NCBI GenBank assembly: GCA_012295225.1
Contig: WMKK01000005.1
Span: 130,958-194,957 of the forward strand
DNA from: Ostreococcus mediterraneus
Lineage: Eukaryota > Chlorophyta > Mamiellophyceae > Mamiellales > Bathycoccaceae
DNA length: 64,000 nucleotides
Direction: 5' to 3'
In this document: in pieces, positions 6,129 to 43,034 of the stretch
Position numbering within the stretch: position 1 is the first letter of the stretch
How the letters are laid out: each line of letters opens with the position of its first letter
The notes under the pieces: generated by a model
What the model was told of the DNA's origin: nothing
What the model saw: the letters and a program-made list of their open reading frames with translations, nothing else
Databases searched by the model: none
Translations under genes and position numbers: made by a program

Positions 6129-8170
6129 TTACGCGAGTTCGAATGCGTTTTGCAAATTACGCTCGTGCCGCGCGCCTTTGGGTGGAGTTGGGAGGATAAA
6201 TTCATCCGCGTCCGCGTTGAGCGTGGATGCCGTACGCGAAGAGTCCCGCGTGCGCTCCGGCGTGGCAATCTCTGCCGCTGCGGCTTGCATGGATGCTGAG
6301 ATTTCGGGAAGAGCGTTCTCCATGGATGTCACCCATCGCTTGCTTTCACCATCGTCTACGGTGGTTTCAACAGGATCGGCAGCTTTGTCGAAGTCGTCAT
6401 CGGCGTCGCCCATTTGATTTGCCACGAGCTCTTCAATTTGAGCCTCTTCTTCAGCCTCAAATTGAGCAATGATGGCGTCGATATCTGCGCCCGTTTCTGC
6501 GAGCATCGTGCGCAGCGCATCGACGCGTCTACCTTCTTGACCGAGACACACGAGGAGATCGGCCAGCTCTTCTTGGGCATCGGCGGTACCGGCGGCGTAG
6601 CCTTCAGCGTAGCCTTCTTCTTTGCCTCGCGCGAACGCCTCGGCGACCGCTTCAGAGCTCGGCGCTTCGCTAATAGCACCCTGTCGTTCGGCAATGGACG
6701 TTTCGAGAGTTTGAATCTTGGTCGTCAGCGCTTCGATTTCGGCATCCTTTTCTCTCGTCGTCGACGACATGGCATCCTCCAGCGCTTGTCTCACCGCGCG
6801 CATTTCTTCGAGTTCGAGCACGCGAGCGTCGACGTTGGCTTGAAGGTCTGCAATCGCTTTGTCGTGAACTGCGCGTTCTACCCAATCGTCATAGTCTTCG
6901 TCGCCACCGTCCCAGTACCACTCCTGCGTGGCGTCGTCAAATTTCCATCGAGGGTCGTACTCGTAATCCTCGTGTCCCTCGTATCCTTGCCATTCTTGTA
7001 CGCCTGATTCCGCGTTGACATCTTGTGCGACGGCATCGAATGCACTCGCATCGACATTGTCGGTGGTTTCGCCGCCCCACGGGACAGCCGCAGGTTCAGA
7101 AGCGATGGGGTCGTCGCGCGCGTCGACGGCCCATTCGCTCCCAGCGGCGACGTGCTCCCACTGCGGTTGTTCAGTCGCTAAAGACGCGTTGGCTTCGCCC
7201 ATATCGCCCACATTGTCACCATACGCCTCATATACGCCGCTGTGGTCGACATTACTAGTCGGCGCGTCCCAGCGCTCTTGGTTGTCACCCTCGGGATCTA
7301 TCCAACCGTCGCCCGCGTTTGTCTCAAACGCGCCGGGCGCTGCAGGGACATCCTCCGCCGGCGCGTCCACATCAGCGCTCGCGCTCGCACTCTCGCCAGC
7401 TAATGGGACGTTCTGTATCGCGTCACCCTTGCCCGTGTCGTCATCAGCCGTCGCCACCTCGCGCCGCGCAGGTTGCATCAACGACAACGTTTCTTCTTCG
7501 CGAGGCGTCTCGCTCGCCGCCGCCGGCGCGGGAACGAAAAACTGCATCCCACTCGGCGGCATCATCGCCCCACCAACTGGCGCCGCACTCGGTATGAACG
7601 CACTCATGCCACCCAACGGCGCGACGGGTGCGGCAGACGTCATCCCATCTCTCGCGAATACGTCGACGTATCTCGACCGCGTCCCAGTCGCCGGGCTCCC
7701 GCCTCCCCCGGCACCCACAGGCGGAACGTTCGACCCCGCACTCACGGGCGAACCATCGCCACCGCTTCCATACGCATCGTATCGCACGGGCATCACCGGC
7801 GGCGCGCTCAGCCCGGCGGTGGCGTCCGCGGTCGCGTTCGCCGGAGCGTTCTTGTCCACCCACGCCTTGAGCGTCTCATCATAGTAAAACGAGCTCTCTT
7901 CCCCGAGTTTCGCGCGCGTCACCTTTTTCCCCGTGCCCTGTGTGGTTGAATGCGTGCAGAACGCGCGCGAGGTCAGTGTTTATCTCACGAGCGGCGCGAT
8001 GAGGACGAGTAATCGCTGCAATTGATCCAACGCAAAGGAAGATCTCTGCAACTGCTGCGTCGGTGCTACGACGACATTGTTCGCGCGCGAGAGCCGACGA
8101 GAGGACGTACGATGCCGAACACGCGACCGAACATGGATTTCGGTGCGTCGTTGTCTGCGTCGGCGCCCAT
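6129..8170 (-). CDS. Short Sec16-like protein (COPII/ER exit site type), 622 aa, one 5' intron
   Basis: Exon 1 is 8111-8170 (MGADADNDAPKSMFGRVFGI) and exon 2 is 6129-7937. The 173-bp intron starts GTACGT, ends CACACAG and carries ACTGAC 34 nt before the acceptor. Splicing joins the frames in phase 0 and yields KLGEESSFYYDETLKAWV at about residues 28-45, the signature found near the C-terminus of plant Sec16, a scaffold at ER exit sites. A Pro/Gly/Ala-rich low-complexity region follows. Around residue 350 there is a second aromatic motif, YDPRWKFDDATQEWYW. Then come a coiled coil (about residues 375-430) and an acidic C-terminus. The large conserved central domain of Sec16 is absent, so this is either a minimal homologue or a different protein sharing the motif. 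A TGTAA element lies 37 nt past the stop (complement of 6088-6092). Confidence 0.65.
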
Positions 8171-8505: not shown

Positions 8506-11121
8506 TTAATCCGTGCCTTCGTATTCACGCATGCGCATCAACTTCTCATCTTCGGCAGCCATGCGCTCGGCTTCAGCGCACATGGCTTCGATTTCCTCCG
8601 GAGTCAAACGGCCGCGGTCGTGTTGGAGCGAAACGTTGGCTTCGACGCCAGTGACGCGATCCTTGGCGGTGACGGTCAACAAACCGTTGGTGTTGACTTC
8701 GAAAGTAACATCAATCTTAGGCGTGCCGGCTTCAGCGCGCTCGATGCCAGAAATTTGGAACTCGCCGAGCAAGTGGTTACCGTCGGTGTTCGAGCGCTCG
8801 CCTTCAAAGATGCGAACGTCGATTTCGTCTTGGTTGTCGTACACAGTGGTGAACTCAGACTTCTTTTTGCACGGAATGGCGGTGTTACGCGGGACAACCT
8901 TGGCGAATTGACGGCCTTCGCACTCGACACCGAGAGAAAGCGGGACGACATCCATGAGCAAAACGCGGGAGGTTTGCTTGTCGCGGACGCCAGCCAAAAT
9001 CGCGCCTTGCACGGCGGCGCCGTACGCGACGGCTTCATCGGGGTGAACAGACTTGTTGAGCGCCTTACCGTCAAAGTATTCGGTAAGAATGGCTTGCACA
9101 CGCGGCACACGGGTGGAGCCACCGACGAGAACGATTTCGTCGACTTCTTCCTTCTTCTTGGAGGCGTCGGAGAGCACTCGCTTGACAGAGTCCAAGCATC
9201 GTTGGAACGTCGGCTCGCAAACCTTTTCGAATTGTTCGCGGGTAATCTTCAACGCAATCTCGACTTCACCGATGAAGCATTCAATAGTGGTGACGTTAGA
9301 GACGGACAAGTCACGCTTGGCCTTTTCGCACGCCGTACGCAACTTGCGGAGCGCCTTTTCGTCACCCGCAAAGATGTCGCTGCCGCGCTCCTTTTCAATC
9401 TCCTTGCGCGCATAGTTGGCGAGCGTGGTGTCGAAATCTTCACCACCCAAGTGAGTGTCACCAGCGGTGGAGAGAACTTCGAAGACGCCGTCTTGCAAGT
9501 TCAACAAAGACACATCAAAGGTACCACCACCGAGATCAAACACCAAGATGCATTGGTTCTTGACGACTTCGCCGTCGACTTCGCGGCGATCGAGACCGTA
9601 CGCGAGCGCCGCGGCGGTCGGCTCGTTGATGATACGGAGCACGTCGAGGCCAGCAATGGCACCGGCATCCTTGGTTTGGCGACGCTGAGCGTCGGAGAAA
9701 TACGCCGGGACGGTAATCACAGCCTTGGTGACCGGGCAGCCAAGTTGCGCCTCGGCGGTCGCCTTCATCTTTTGCAAAACCATGGCGGAAATTTGCTCCG
9801 GGGCAAACTCCTTGTTCTCGCCGTTCACTTCAACCTCAATCACGGGCTTACCACCGTTACCTTCCTTGACGGTGAACGGCATCAACTTGAGCTCTTCATC
9901 GCACTCGCTGAATTGGCGACCAATGATACGCTTGATGTTGAACAACGTGTTCTTCGGGTTGATGGCCGCTTGACGCTTGGCGGCGTCGCCGACGAGACGA
10001 CCTTGGTCGGTGAAAGACACCCAAGACGGGGTCGTGCGGTCACCTTCGGCGTTCAACAACACGTGCGCTTCACCGTTTCTCCACACGGAGACGCAAGAGT
10101 ACGTCGTACCGAGATCGATACCGATGACGTGCTCGTCGAGCGTAACGTTATCCATTTGCGCGCTCAACTTGGCGGCTTCAATCTTAGCCTTTTGCGCCAA
10201 CTTGGCTTCACCCAAACCTTCAATCAAGTTGTTGTTCTTCGGGTCCACGGCTAAACCACGCTCGTACGCACCCATGGCGTCGTGCAAGAAACCAGACTTG
10301 AACAACGCGAAACCGAGGCGAGAATACCCCTTGGCGAAATCCGGCTTGAGCTCGATGCACCGGCGCGCGTCGGCGCACGCCTTGGAATATTGCTCCAAGT
10401 TGGCGTAGCACGCAGAGCGGTTGGAGTAGAAAATGTGATCATACGGATCGCAATCGAGCGCCTTGGTGAATTCACTCGTCGCTTCGTAGTAGCGACCGGC
10501 GGAGAACGCGTTGTTCCCGGCAGCCTTGTGCTTACCCGCTTGTTGCTTCATCGCGGGCGTGACCTATACGCGAAGACGCAAAGCGCGCTTTTGTCAGTAC
10601 GCGAACGACGACCACGACGACTTCGACGTCATCACCACCACACACACCACACACAGCGCACCACACACACCCACGCGCGTTCCCACGCGCCCCGCGCGCG
10701 CGCGCACACCCACGACCACCGCGCCCGCGTCCCCGCGCGCGCGACCGCCCTCGCGATAAGGGTCTGCGTCCCAGCCCCGTCGAGCCCGTCCCGCGTCACC
10801 CCCTCCGCCGTCTCCGTGCGTCCCAGCGCGCGACCACGACACACCGCGCGTCGCGCGCGCCGACGCCACCACCCCAGTCGCACCACCACCGCGCGCGTCA
10901 CCACCGCGCGAAGCCCGACGGCGCGCGTCGCGTCACCCGCGCGATCGGCGGCTGGCGGCGCACCGCATCGGCGTCATCATCATCATCATCCTCCTCCGCG
11001 CATCGTCCGCGCATCGCGCGCGAATCGCCGCGCGTACCTGGATGAGATCATCGTCATCGTGCGCGACGACGGGCGCGGCGGCGGCGGCGCCCGTCGTCTT
11101 CTTCGTCTTACTCGGAGCCAT
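8506..11121 (-). CDS. TPR-Hsp70 fusion chaperone without the C-terminal lid (713 aa)
   Basis: Exon 1 is 11038-11121 (28 codons, starting MAPSKTKKTTG) and exon 2 is 8506-10563. The 474-bp intron has donor CAG/GTACGC, ACTGAC 29 nt before the acceptor, and acceptor TATAG, joining in phase 0. If the intron is wrong, an in-frame ATG at 10551 still gives 681 aa. Residues ~33-145 are three TPR units close to the TPR1 domain of STI1/Hop (YSNRSACYANLEQYSKA, KPDFAKGYSRLGFAL). A short helix leads into a full Hsp70 nucleotide-binding domain (GIDLGTTYSC near 176, VFDLGGGTFDVSLL, IVLVGGSTRVP) and the beta substrate-binding domain (MDVVPLSLGVE). The protein stops soon after RGRLTPEEIEAM, near the position equivalent to residue ~530 of cytosolic Hsp70. 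The helical lid and EEVD tail are therefore missing. No transit or signal peptide is seen, so it is probably cytosolic. It diverges from the phosphatase-like gene at 11924. Confidence 0.85.
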
Positions 11122-11324: not shown

Positions 11325-11556
11325 GGGTGTCGTCGTCCCAGGTCCCAGGTCCCAGGTCCCCGAGCCCGCGCCCGCGCGCGAGGGCGTGGGTCGACCATCG
11401 CGTAAGCGTCGCGCAGGCGTCGGTGCGTTCGTCGGGTGTCGTGCGCTATGCACTGGCGCGCGAGGACCGTCCGGGATCGCCTCCACGCGGGGTGTCATCG
11501 GACGATTGACGCGCGATGGGCGGGTCGGGCGATGCGTGGGGTGTGGGCGACCGACC

Positions 11557-11899
11557 GATGGCGCGATGGCGCGATGGATGGCGCGATGGATGGCGCGATG
11601 GCGCGATGGCGCGATGGATGGCGCGATGGCGCGATGGCGCGATGGATGGCGCGATGGCGCGATGGCGCGATGGCGCGCGATGGCGCGATGGCGCGATGGC
11701 GCGGTTGATGGATGGCGCGATGTGTGGCTCGATGGATGGCTCGATGGATGGCTCGATGGACCGATCGATGGACCGATGGCGCGATCGATGGAGCGATCGA
11801 TGAACCCATGGCGCGATCGATGGAGCGATCGATGGATCGATGGACCGATCGATGGATCGATGAACCGATGGCGCGATCGATCGATGGCGCGATGGATGG
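11557..11899. repeat. GATGGCGC/GATGGATGG minisatellite, about 340 bp
   Basis: Seen directly: an array built from GATGGCGC and GATG units. It drifts toward GATCGATGG, GGACCGATCGATGG and GGCTCGATGGATGG variants in its second half. It ends about 25 bp before the proposed start codon of the phosphatase-like gene, so it occupies that gene's 5' leader or promoter. The 18-mer CGATGGCGCGATCGATGG at 11774-11791 occurs identically at 42639-42656. Confidence 0.9.
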
Positions 11900-11923: not shown

Positions 11924-12817
11924 ATGGTGGTGGCGATGGGTGATGCGTCGTCGTCGTCGTCGTCGTCGTCGAGGCAGTTTAGATTGCATCGCGCGAGCGC
12001 GTACGATGCGCTCGTGAACGCGTCGGCGGCGTCGGCGGCGGCGGCGGCTTCATCAGGAGGCGCGTCATCGGTGAAGCTGGTGACGTTCGTGCGCCACGCG
12101 GAGGGGTGGCATAACGTCGGGGCGTATAACGACGCGTTGAATTTCGATGCCAAGCTCACGCCCCGAGGGGAGGCGCAGTGTGAGGCGTTGGCGATGGAGC
12201 GCGTGGGCGCGGGGGCGCGATTGGTGGTGACGAGTAGCATGACGAGGTGCGTGCAGACGGCGGTGTTGTCGTTTCCGTATTTGCTGCGTTCGCCGACGAC
12301 GACGTGGATCGCGAGGGAAGATGTGCGTGAGACGGTGAATTATTGGTGCGATCGGCGGCGGGCGCTGGATGATTTGCGGGGTGAATTTCAAGGCGGAGAC
12401 GTCGATTTCGGCGCGTGCTCGACGGAGGATGAGATTTGGAACAAGTACGAGGCGATTTGCGGACCTCCCGAGGCGTGGACGAAACATCGCGAATCGTGTG
12501 ATTTATGCTCCGTCGCCAATCGCGCGCGGGCTTTTTTTACGTGGCTTGAGACGCGACCCGAGGAACGCGTCGTGGTGAGCTCGCATTCAGCTTTTCTCCG
12601 CGCTTTGTTCTCGTACGGGCACCGCGACGGCGTGCGCGGCGCACCCGAACAATTATTTTGTGACGTCAAGGACACCGCGCTTGGGGTTCCCGTGGTGACG
12701 TATGAAAATGATGACGACGATAGGTCGTTTGAACGATTCATGCGCGCCGATTACGCCAACTGCGAACATCGAACGTGCGTCGTCGATTTCACGCCAATGG
12801 CGGTGCGCGCCGTGTAA
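11924..12817 (+). CDS. Histidine phosphatase superfamily protein (phosphoglycerate-mutase-like), 297 aa
   Basis: The branch-1 histidine phosphatase signature is clear. The catalytic RHAEG motif comes in VTFVRHAEGWHNVG (about residue 55), then TSSMTRCVQTA, and the second catalytic histidine in VVVSSHSAFLRALF (about residue 220). Such enzymes remove phosphate through a phospho-histidine intermediate. The exact substrate cannot be read from sequence. It resembles plant phosphoglycerate-mutase-like proteins more than glycolytic mutase. The N-terminus has a poly-Ser run from a TCG repeat and an Ala-rich stretch, and no clear targeting signal. The start at 11924 is the first ATG in frame, with a second at 11936. 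Just upstream lies the GATGGCGC minisatellite. A possible AATAAA-like element follows the stop near 12880, beside a TGC repeat. Confidence 0.8.
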   Translation: MVVAMGDASSSSSSSSRQFRLHRASAYDALVNASAASAAAAASSGGASSVKLVTFVRHAEGWHNVGAYNDALNFDAKLTPRGEAQCEALAMERVGAGARLVVTSSMTRCVQTAVLSFPYLLRSPTTTWIAREDVRETVNYWCDRRRALDDLRGEFQGGDVDFGACSTEDEIWNKYEAICGPPEAWTKHRESCDLCSVANRARAFFTWLETRPEERVVVSSHSAFLRALFSYGHRDGVRGAPEQLFCDVKDTALGVPVVTYENDDDDRSFERFMRADYANCEHRTCVVDFTPMAVRAV

Positions 12818-12979: not shown

Positions 12980-13951
12980 CTAGTCGAATCGTCGATTTTT
13001 CGTAATCACGATATCGCATTCGTCGTACGTGCCGTCACCATAATCCCCTTCCATGGCTTCATCGATGGAGTTATACACGGTGCCAGCCGCGTCCCAATAG
13101 CACCACGAGTTGTCCAACACGTGCGACATGCGTCGCTCCTTCGCCGCTAAATACCCCTCGTTGAATAAATTCGCCTTGACGATGCAAGGAATGCGCCCGG
13201 TAATTTTAACCCCCGCACACTCTAGTTCGCGAATCTTTCGCGGGTTATTCGTCATCAATTGAATCGACTGCACGTTCAACTCACGCAACATGTTCTCCAC
13301 CGCTGAATACTCACGCGTGTCATCCGGTAAACCAAGTTGTCGATTCGCATCAACCGTATCCACCCCCGTCTCTTGCACCGCATACGCCGCAATCTTATTC
13401 GCCAAACCAATTCCCCGTCCTTCTTGTTGCAAATAACACACGATCCCACCTCGACCGTTTTCTTTAATGTAATCCATCGCCAACTCCAACTGCTGCTTGC
13501 AATCGCACTTCAAACTCCCCAACACCTCGCTCGTAAAGCACGCATCGTGCACGCGCACGGGCACATCGCTCTGCCCTTCAACCTCCCCGTACACCAAGCA
13601 CACCGGCTCGGTCACCTCCCCCGTGAGCGGGTTCGCGTGCCTGTACGCGCGCACGCGATAAAAACCTCGATCGGTGGGCAACTTGGTCTCCGCCACGAAC
13701 GCCGTCTCCCCGAGCGCGGGCGGCGTCGCCGGCGGCGTCGCGCCGTCCGCATCGCCGCTCAACGCGCGCGCGCGATGCGCCGCGCGAACGCCGCCCTGAG
13801 CGCGCGTCGGCATTGACGCGAACGACGAACCGCGGTGCCGCGTCATCGGCATCGACATCGGCACCATCATCGGCGTCGTCGTCGTCGTCGTCGTCGTCGC
13901 GCGACACGCGGTGCGCGCGGTGAACGCGGGAGTCATCGTCGCGCAGTGCAT
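12980..13951 (-). CDS. RIBA: GTP cyclohydrolase II, plastid-targeted, monofunctional (323 aa)
   Basis: It catalyses the first step of riboflavin synthesis: GTP to 2,5-diamino-6-ribosylamino-pyrimidinone phosphate, with release of formate and pyrophosphate. Seen: zinc-binding CFTSEVLGSLKCDCKQQ (about residues 142-158), QQEGRGIGLANK (~175), DTVDANRQLG (~198) and the MTNNPRKI motif (~233). The first ~75 residues are Thr/Met/Arg-rich and transit-like, including a Thr run encoded by an ACG repeat. In land plants RIBA is usually a fusion with DHBP synthase (RibB). Here the RibB half is missing, and the protein starts directly with the cyclohydrolase domain after the transit region. The ~45 residues after the core are an extra tail. 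Convergent with the phosphatase-like gene. Confidence 0.9.
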   Translation of the reverse strand: MHCATMTPAFTARTACRATTTTTTTTPMMVPMSMPMTRHRGSSFASMPTRAQGGVRAAHRARALSGDADGATPPATPPALGETAFVAETKLPTDRGFYRVRAYRHANPLTGEVTEPVCLVYGEVEGQSDVPVRVHDACFTSEVLGSLKCDCKQQLELAMDYIKENGRGGIVCYLQQEGRGIGLANKIAAYAVQETGVDTVDANRQLGLPDDTREYSAVENMLRELNVQSIQLMTNNPRKIRELECAGVKITGRIPCIVKANLFNEGYLAAKERRMSHVLDNSWCYWDAAGTVYNSIDEAMEGDYGDGTYDECDIVITKNRRFD

Positions 13952-14190
13952 CGCCGCCGTCGTCGTCGAGGCGCGCGCAACGACCCGAGGCGGACGCGCT
14001 TGTGACGACGCCGACGACGACGGCGACGCGGTGGATAACTACGCGGCGAGGAAACAAATACCCGTAACTTTTACCATGTAAGCTCATGCGCCGGCGTCGG
14101 GGGGGCGTGGGCGCTCGCGACGAGTAATGACTCGCCGTCAGAGGGGTAAAACCCTGCGCGCCATACTATGGCGCGTGTACACCTATGTTG

Positions 14191-42592: not shown

Positions 42593-43034
42593 GATGGGTG
42601 CGCGATGTGACGCTATCCGCGCGCGCGGGCGCCGCGATCGATGGCGCGATCGATGGCGCGATCGATGGTTTGGATGCTCGCGATCGATATGTGCCATCGA
42701 TATTGATCGATATTGATCGATATTGATGATCGATATCGATCAGGATATCAGGATATCGATATCGATATCGATCGATATCAATATTGATCGATATCGATAT
42801 CGATCGATATCCAGATATTGATCGATATCAATGGGGATGTGAAGGTGATGCGAACGGACGCGCGGGCGCGCGAGGAATGTGTATCGCGTATTGCGTGTAC
42901 CGTACGAGTACTAGTAGAGCAAAATTATATATGTTATGTATTCACATGGATGTTATATAAGGTGGTTATTGTGTGCGCGGCGCAAAGCGGAGGAGGTGGC
43001 GTTAGTCTGGCGGCGCGTTGTTTTGGGTTTTACT
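42593..43034. other. Intergenic region dominated by GATC/ATCGAT repeats
   Basis: Separates the starts of the thylakoid-type gene (-) from the 3' end of the DUF1330 gene (-). It contains the repeat at 42636-42834 and about 200 bp of lower-GC sequence with no convincing coding frame. Confidence 0.65.
42636..42834. repeat. GATCGATGGCGC units grading into AT-rich ATCGATAT palindromic repeat
   Basis: 42636-42669 is three GATCGATGG units spaced by CGC, then 42681-42834 is built almost only of GATCGATAT, ATATCGAT and GATATTGATC words. These words are self-complementary, so the stretch can form long imperfect hairpins. It shares an exact 18-mer, CGATGGCGCGATCGATGG, with the minisatellite at 11557-11899. 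Confidence 0.85.

Follow-up and report, generated by a model that had tools for sequence, protein, structure and literature searches.

A Hop-like TPR domain fused ahead of a divergent Hsp70 without most of its lid or an EEVD tail in Ostreococcus mediterraneus

Main

Hsp70 and TPR domains are known to occur together in one polypeptide. The DnaK-TPR protein of Toxoplasma (TGME49_202020) is 763 aa long, with a central Hsp70 domain and C-terminal TPRs; it was reported to interact with the co-chaperone p23, and knocking out its gene produces a mild phenotype (PMC5693876). Cytosolic Hsp70s with a truncated C terminus (cyHsp70T, lineages T1 and T2) have likewise been described from both plants and green algae, a survey finding at least one in 45% of 20 green algae (PMC10687569). 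TPR appears in that survey solely as the partner of EEVD, and its main text names neither Ostreococcus nor Micromonas. In the available text of a Leishmania chaperone review, TPRs sit on J-proteins, not on Hsp70s.

Here we describe a gene in a 64-kb stretch of Ostreococcus mediterraneus DNA, hereafter the window, in which a TPR domain is fused ahead of a divergent Hsp70 in a single intact frame. Compared by description only, its product resembles Toxoplasma DnaK-TPR in joining Hsp70 and TPR in one polypeptide but has the reverse order, with the TPR N-terminal here and C-terminal there. It shares with cyHsp70T a cytosolic-type Hsp70 part, as judged by its best match, and a C terminus (EYEGTD) without EEVD, but differs in being diverged, whereas T1 proteins are close to full-length Hsp70. 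Both halves are of known kinds, and an N-terminal TPR followed by a lidless Hsp70 matches neither arrangement. The view of a first-pass annotation that no such family had been described was too strong for Hsp70 and TPR combinations in general, because Toxoplasma DnaK-TPR and the truncated cytosolic Hsp70s were already known, but for this exact order we found no description in the open-access literature. Most likely, the locus is an intact nuclear gene for a 75–78 kDa chaperone, presumably cytosolic. We propose, as an evenly balanced proposition built on the sequence, that the protein may be a recruited auxiliary Hsp70, which would dock through its TPR on EEVD tails and give an existing chaperone complex fast-exchanging peptide binding.

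One open frame encodes the TPR and Hsp70 parts

The gene lies on the minus strand, where an uninterrupted stop-to-stop frame of 685 codons runs from position 10563 to 8506 of the window with no internal stop and contains both the TPRs and the Hsp70. From the ATG at 10551 it encodes 681 residues (~74.8 kDa), with three TPRs at residues 6–113; residues 142–645 form a complete Hsp70 ATPase domain together with its linker and the beta substrate-binding domain (SBD-beta). In a Pfam search, the HSP70 family (PF00012) matched residues 142–673 with an E value of 2.4e-208, spanning profile positions 1–526 of 599. These results uphold the initial description of a TPR triplet followed in one frame by a complete ATPase domain and SBD-beta.

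The TPR triplet and its capping helix (residues 1–118 from this ATG; 10198–10551) were delimited by Pfam, the match to HOP and the clamp residues. They are followed by a linker of residues 119–141 (10129–10197), which shares its frame and codon bias with its neighbours, and by the nucleotide-binding domain (NBD; residues 142–523; 8983–10128), defined by PF00012, matches to Hsp70 NBDs in the PDB and a confident structural model. The interdomain linker (RVLLMD, residues 529–534) and SBD-beta, which extends to residue 645 (8617–8982), were placed by alignment to Chlamydomonas HSP70A and by the beta strands of the model. GC3 is even along the gene (TPR 0.74, linker 0.70, NBD 0.70 and SBD 0.68). 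That the TPR and Hsp70 parts are two separately transcribed genes, or were joined by a gene-model error, is extremely unlikely, given this level GC3 and a frame that is unbroken across both domains and the linker between them. No second Hsp70 was found within the window.

The gene sits in a compact, high-G+C region and has a putative 474-bp intron (10564–11037; GTACGC...TACTGAC...TATAG). A putative first exon of 28 aa (11038–11121; MAPSKTKKTTGAAAAAPVVAHDDDDLIQ) would start with an ATG, stay open to a CAG|GT donor and join exon 2 in phase 0. The donor (CAG|GTACGC) is good, the acceptor is TATAG|, and a branch-like TACTGAC lies at 10593–10599. Counting both strands, the 64 kb contain TACTRAC four times, roughly the chance expectation for the whole window; with so infrequent a motif, chance is unlikely to place one ~30 nt ahead of the acceptor (~0.001 per 20–25 nt by our estimate). 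The intron of this length suggested earlier is therefore plausible from its splice signals and phase 0 join. If the predicted join is right, the spliced product would comprise the 28 aa of exon 1, VTPA and the 681 residues, for a total of 713 aa. The fusion is independent of the intron: with transcription starting inside it, the ATG at 10551 still yields the complete TPR–Hsp70 protein.

The TPR part is of the Hop type and carries a complete clamp

Within residues 28–106, Pfam TPR_2, TPR_17, TPR_1 and TPR_11 exceeded their gathering scores, with TPR_8 and TPR_14 borderline. HOP TPR1 aligned with residues 3–121, indicating three repeats, and was the best natural match of this part in the PDB, where an engineered repeat protein scored higher. 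The peptide-contacting residues of HOP TPR1 are known from its structure with bound peptide. The two-carboxylate clamp is complete: HOP K8, N12, N43, K73 and R77 correspond to K9, N13, N44, K74 and R78, and HOP A46 and A49 are also retained. The Hop-like character first assigned to this domain is thus well founded, with five of five clamp residues in place. HOP E83 and F84, however, which we take to be the positions that touch the EEVD peptide in its hydrophobic portion, are replaced by F84 and K85, changes that would count against EEVD docking. The likeness to HOP/STI1 TPR1 (PDB 1elw and 7kw7) extends to the YSNRSA-YA and KGYSR motifs. Unlike HOP/STI1, the protein has a single TPR triplet, without TPR2A, TPR2B or DP domains, and carries it in cis with an Hsp70.

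Structure prediction, another check suggested at the outset, supported the NBD and SBD-beta but gave no confident model of the TPR. In an AlphaFold model whose input alignment held Hsp70 relatives only, the NBD was confident (pLDDT mostly 85–98), SBD-beta was acceptable and a helix formed at residues 651–680 in the lid stump. The TPR part had low confidence because the alignment contained zero TPR relatives, and when folded alone as a single sequence it reached a pLDDT of 46. As it was poorly modelled both ways, we count neither model as evidence on TPR placement.

The Hsp70 part is divergent but keeps its catalytic residues

In comparison with the PDB, the best matches of the Hsp70 part were canonical cytosolic Hsp70s, Chlamydomonas HSP70A first, and not Hsp110. 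Identity to HSP70A was 52% over 541 columns, which points to a paralogue that has diverged, not to the housekeeping gene recently cut short; a divergence of 48% argues against a recent origin from that gene. Like Chlamydomonas HSP70A (PDB 7n6g) and animal Hsc70, the protein has all catalytic motifs in an actin-fold NBD that a conserved linker joins to SBD-beta; it differs from them in its N-terminal TPR, in the absence of EEVD and most of the lid and, with respect to HSP70A, in this degree of identity. The phosphate and adenosine motifs of the NBD, aspartate D534 in the linker and residues R306, N309 and T312, the counterparts of the J-protein-contacting R167, N170 and T173 of DnaK, were invariant in 31 aligned Hsp70s (this protein and 30 relatives). 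On this alignment, the Hsp70 part keeps the residues predicted to be needed for ATP hydrolysis and the response to J-proteins. The start of the linker is altered (TSRVLLMD here vs VQDLLLLD in Chlamydomonas), so allosteric coupling could be weakened.

Alternatively, the protein might dock as a catalytically slow Hsp70-like regulator, as with HSPA14 or Hsp110, and serve as an exchange factor or client holder instead of a cycling chaperone. The divergence, the altered linker start and the missing lid would fit such a role, but the conserved catalytic and J-contact residues and the closeness to canonical cytosolic Hsp70s and not Hsp110 make it unlikely.

Viral, phage and prokaryotic sequence sets were searched. 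In viral contigs, all relatives of the full protein were confined to its Hsp70 part and lacked a preceding TPR; in the same contigs, the TPR part had no relative and the C-terminal part no match. Matches in phage records were of the DnaK type and likewise limited to the Hsp70 part, a fold search in the viral set returned generic Hsp70s, and the TPR part found ordinary TPR matches only, at 28–35% identity, in bacterial and archaeal genomes. An Hsp70 resembling BiP, with a signal-like stretch at its N terminus and DEDEL at its C terminus, is encoded by an IMG/VR contig (L095:2911-4872); it is either an ER-type Hsp70 of a giant virus or a eukaryotic contaminant. Its identity to our protein is 51%, close to that of HSP70A.

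Most of the lid and the EEVD tail are absent

The protein ends in EDEKLMRMREYEGTD followed by the stop codon TAA (8506–8508), so that the lid stump (8509–8616; ending REYEGTD) comprises helix A and the beginning of helix B. The alignment to HSP70A stops at its residue 543 of 651, and the model helix described above lies in this stump. A canonical cytosolic Hsp70, with a full alpha-helical lid and a C-terminal EEVD, is therefore not what this gene encodes, and the first-pass annotation was right that the lid is truncated and EEVD gone. It had also named a 3' exon that supplies both as the finding that would overturn this description. By inspection of the three minus-strand frames down to window position 7600, no continuation with a lid or EEVD was found, and three peptides from the 3' flank had no Pfam matches; a further minus-strand gene begins in this flank.

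The position of the stop within helix B, together with the divergence of the Hsp70 part, would also fit a recently truncated or decaying copy that lost its lid by a premature stop and has no chaperone role. Against this, the catalytic and clamp motifs are all retained across 681 codons, codon bias is uniform and the 3' flank has no recognisable lid remnant; we consider it very unlikely.

The C terminus could itself be a ligand. In EEVD ligands, the terminal Asp supplies both carboxylates, and the last residue of this protein is Asp; the linker between TPR and NBD is short (~23 residues). The TPR could accordingly work in cis, packing on its own or a sister C terminus (EYEGTD) or on its own NBD, and be autoinhibitory or oligomerizing, not a recruiter. 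EGTD, however, does not have the acidic and hydrophobic residues of IEEVD, and the AlphaFold model does not place the TPR confidently, making a cis arrangement quite unlikely.

A proposed role as a recruited auxiliary Hsp70

In the recruited auxiliary role proposed above, the TPR clamp would dock on canonical Hsp70 or Hsp90 by their EEVD tails, as its retained residues suggest. To clients that the main machine already holds, the docked protein would offer another peptide-binding site with fast exchange, and J-proteins would drive the cycle of its Hsp70 part. A lidless DnaK has been studied as a construct and reportedly shows altered interdomain kinetics (Slepenkov and Witt 2002, cited in PMC10687569). 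Because EEVD is absent, the protein would neither compete for Hop/CHIP-type partners nor self-assemble through a canonical tail. More broadly, it may be one of a conserved class of picoalgal chaperones, each a single chain whose Hop-like TPR and lidless Hsp70 would assemble a hetero-Hsp70 (or Hsp90–Hsp70) complex with no need for Hop, as a compact, built-in handover unit in a reduced eukaryotic proteome. We regard this possibility as doubtful.

Having lost its own docking tail while carrying a docking receptor, the protein offers a test case from nature for the functions of the Hsp70 lid and tail. Should it prove conserved and able to bind EEVD, it would represent a naturally occurring form, in cis, of the partnership between Hop and Hsp70, and in a very reduced eukaryote; as a local fusion and no more, it would be one further rearrangement of common domains.

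Neighbouring genes and repeats

The gene that follows downstream, also on the minus strand (6129–7979), encodes a protein with low-complexity and coiled-coil sequence, whose only Pfam matches, to coiled-coil models, are weak and below threshold; we take its KLGEESSFYYDETLKAWV motif to resemble Sec16. Just upstream of the TPR–Hsp70 gene, at window positions 11556–11899, GATGGCGCG/GATCGATG-type units are densely and imperfectly repeated in tandem, with periods of 8, 12, 20, 28 and 32; the array keeps frames open on both strands and creates spurious ORFs. A similar repeat block, rich in ATCGAT/GATCGATATC, lies at 42633–42829. A histidine phosphatase superfamily protein (PF00300) is encoded divergently to the TPR–Hsp70 gene at 11936–12817 on the plus strand, and GTP cyclohydrolase II (PF00925), of riboflavin synthesis, at 12980–14038 on the minus strand.
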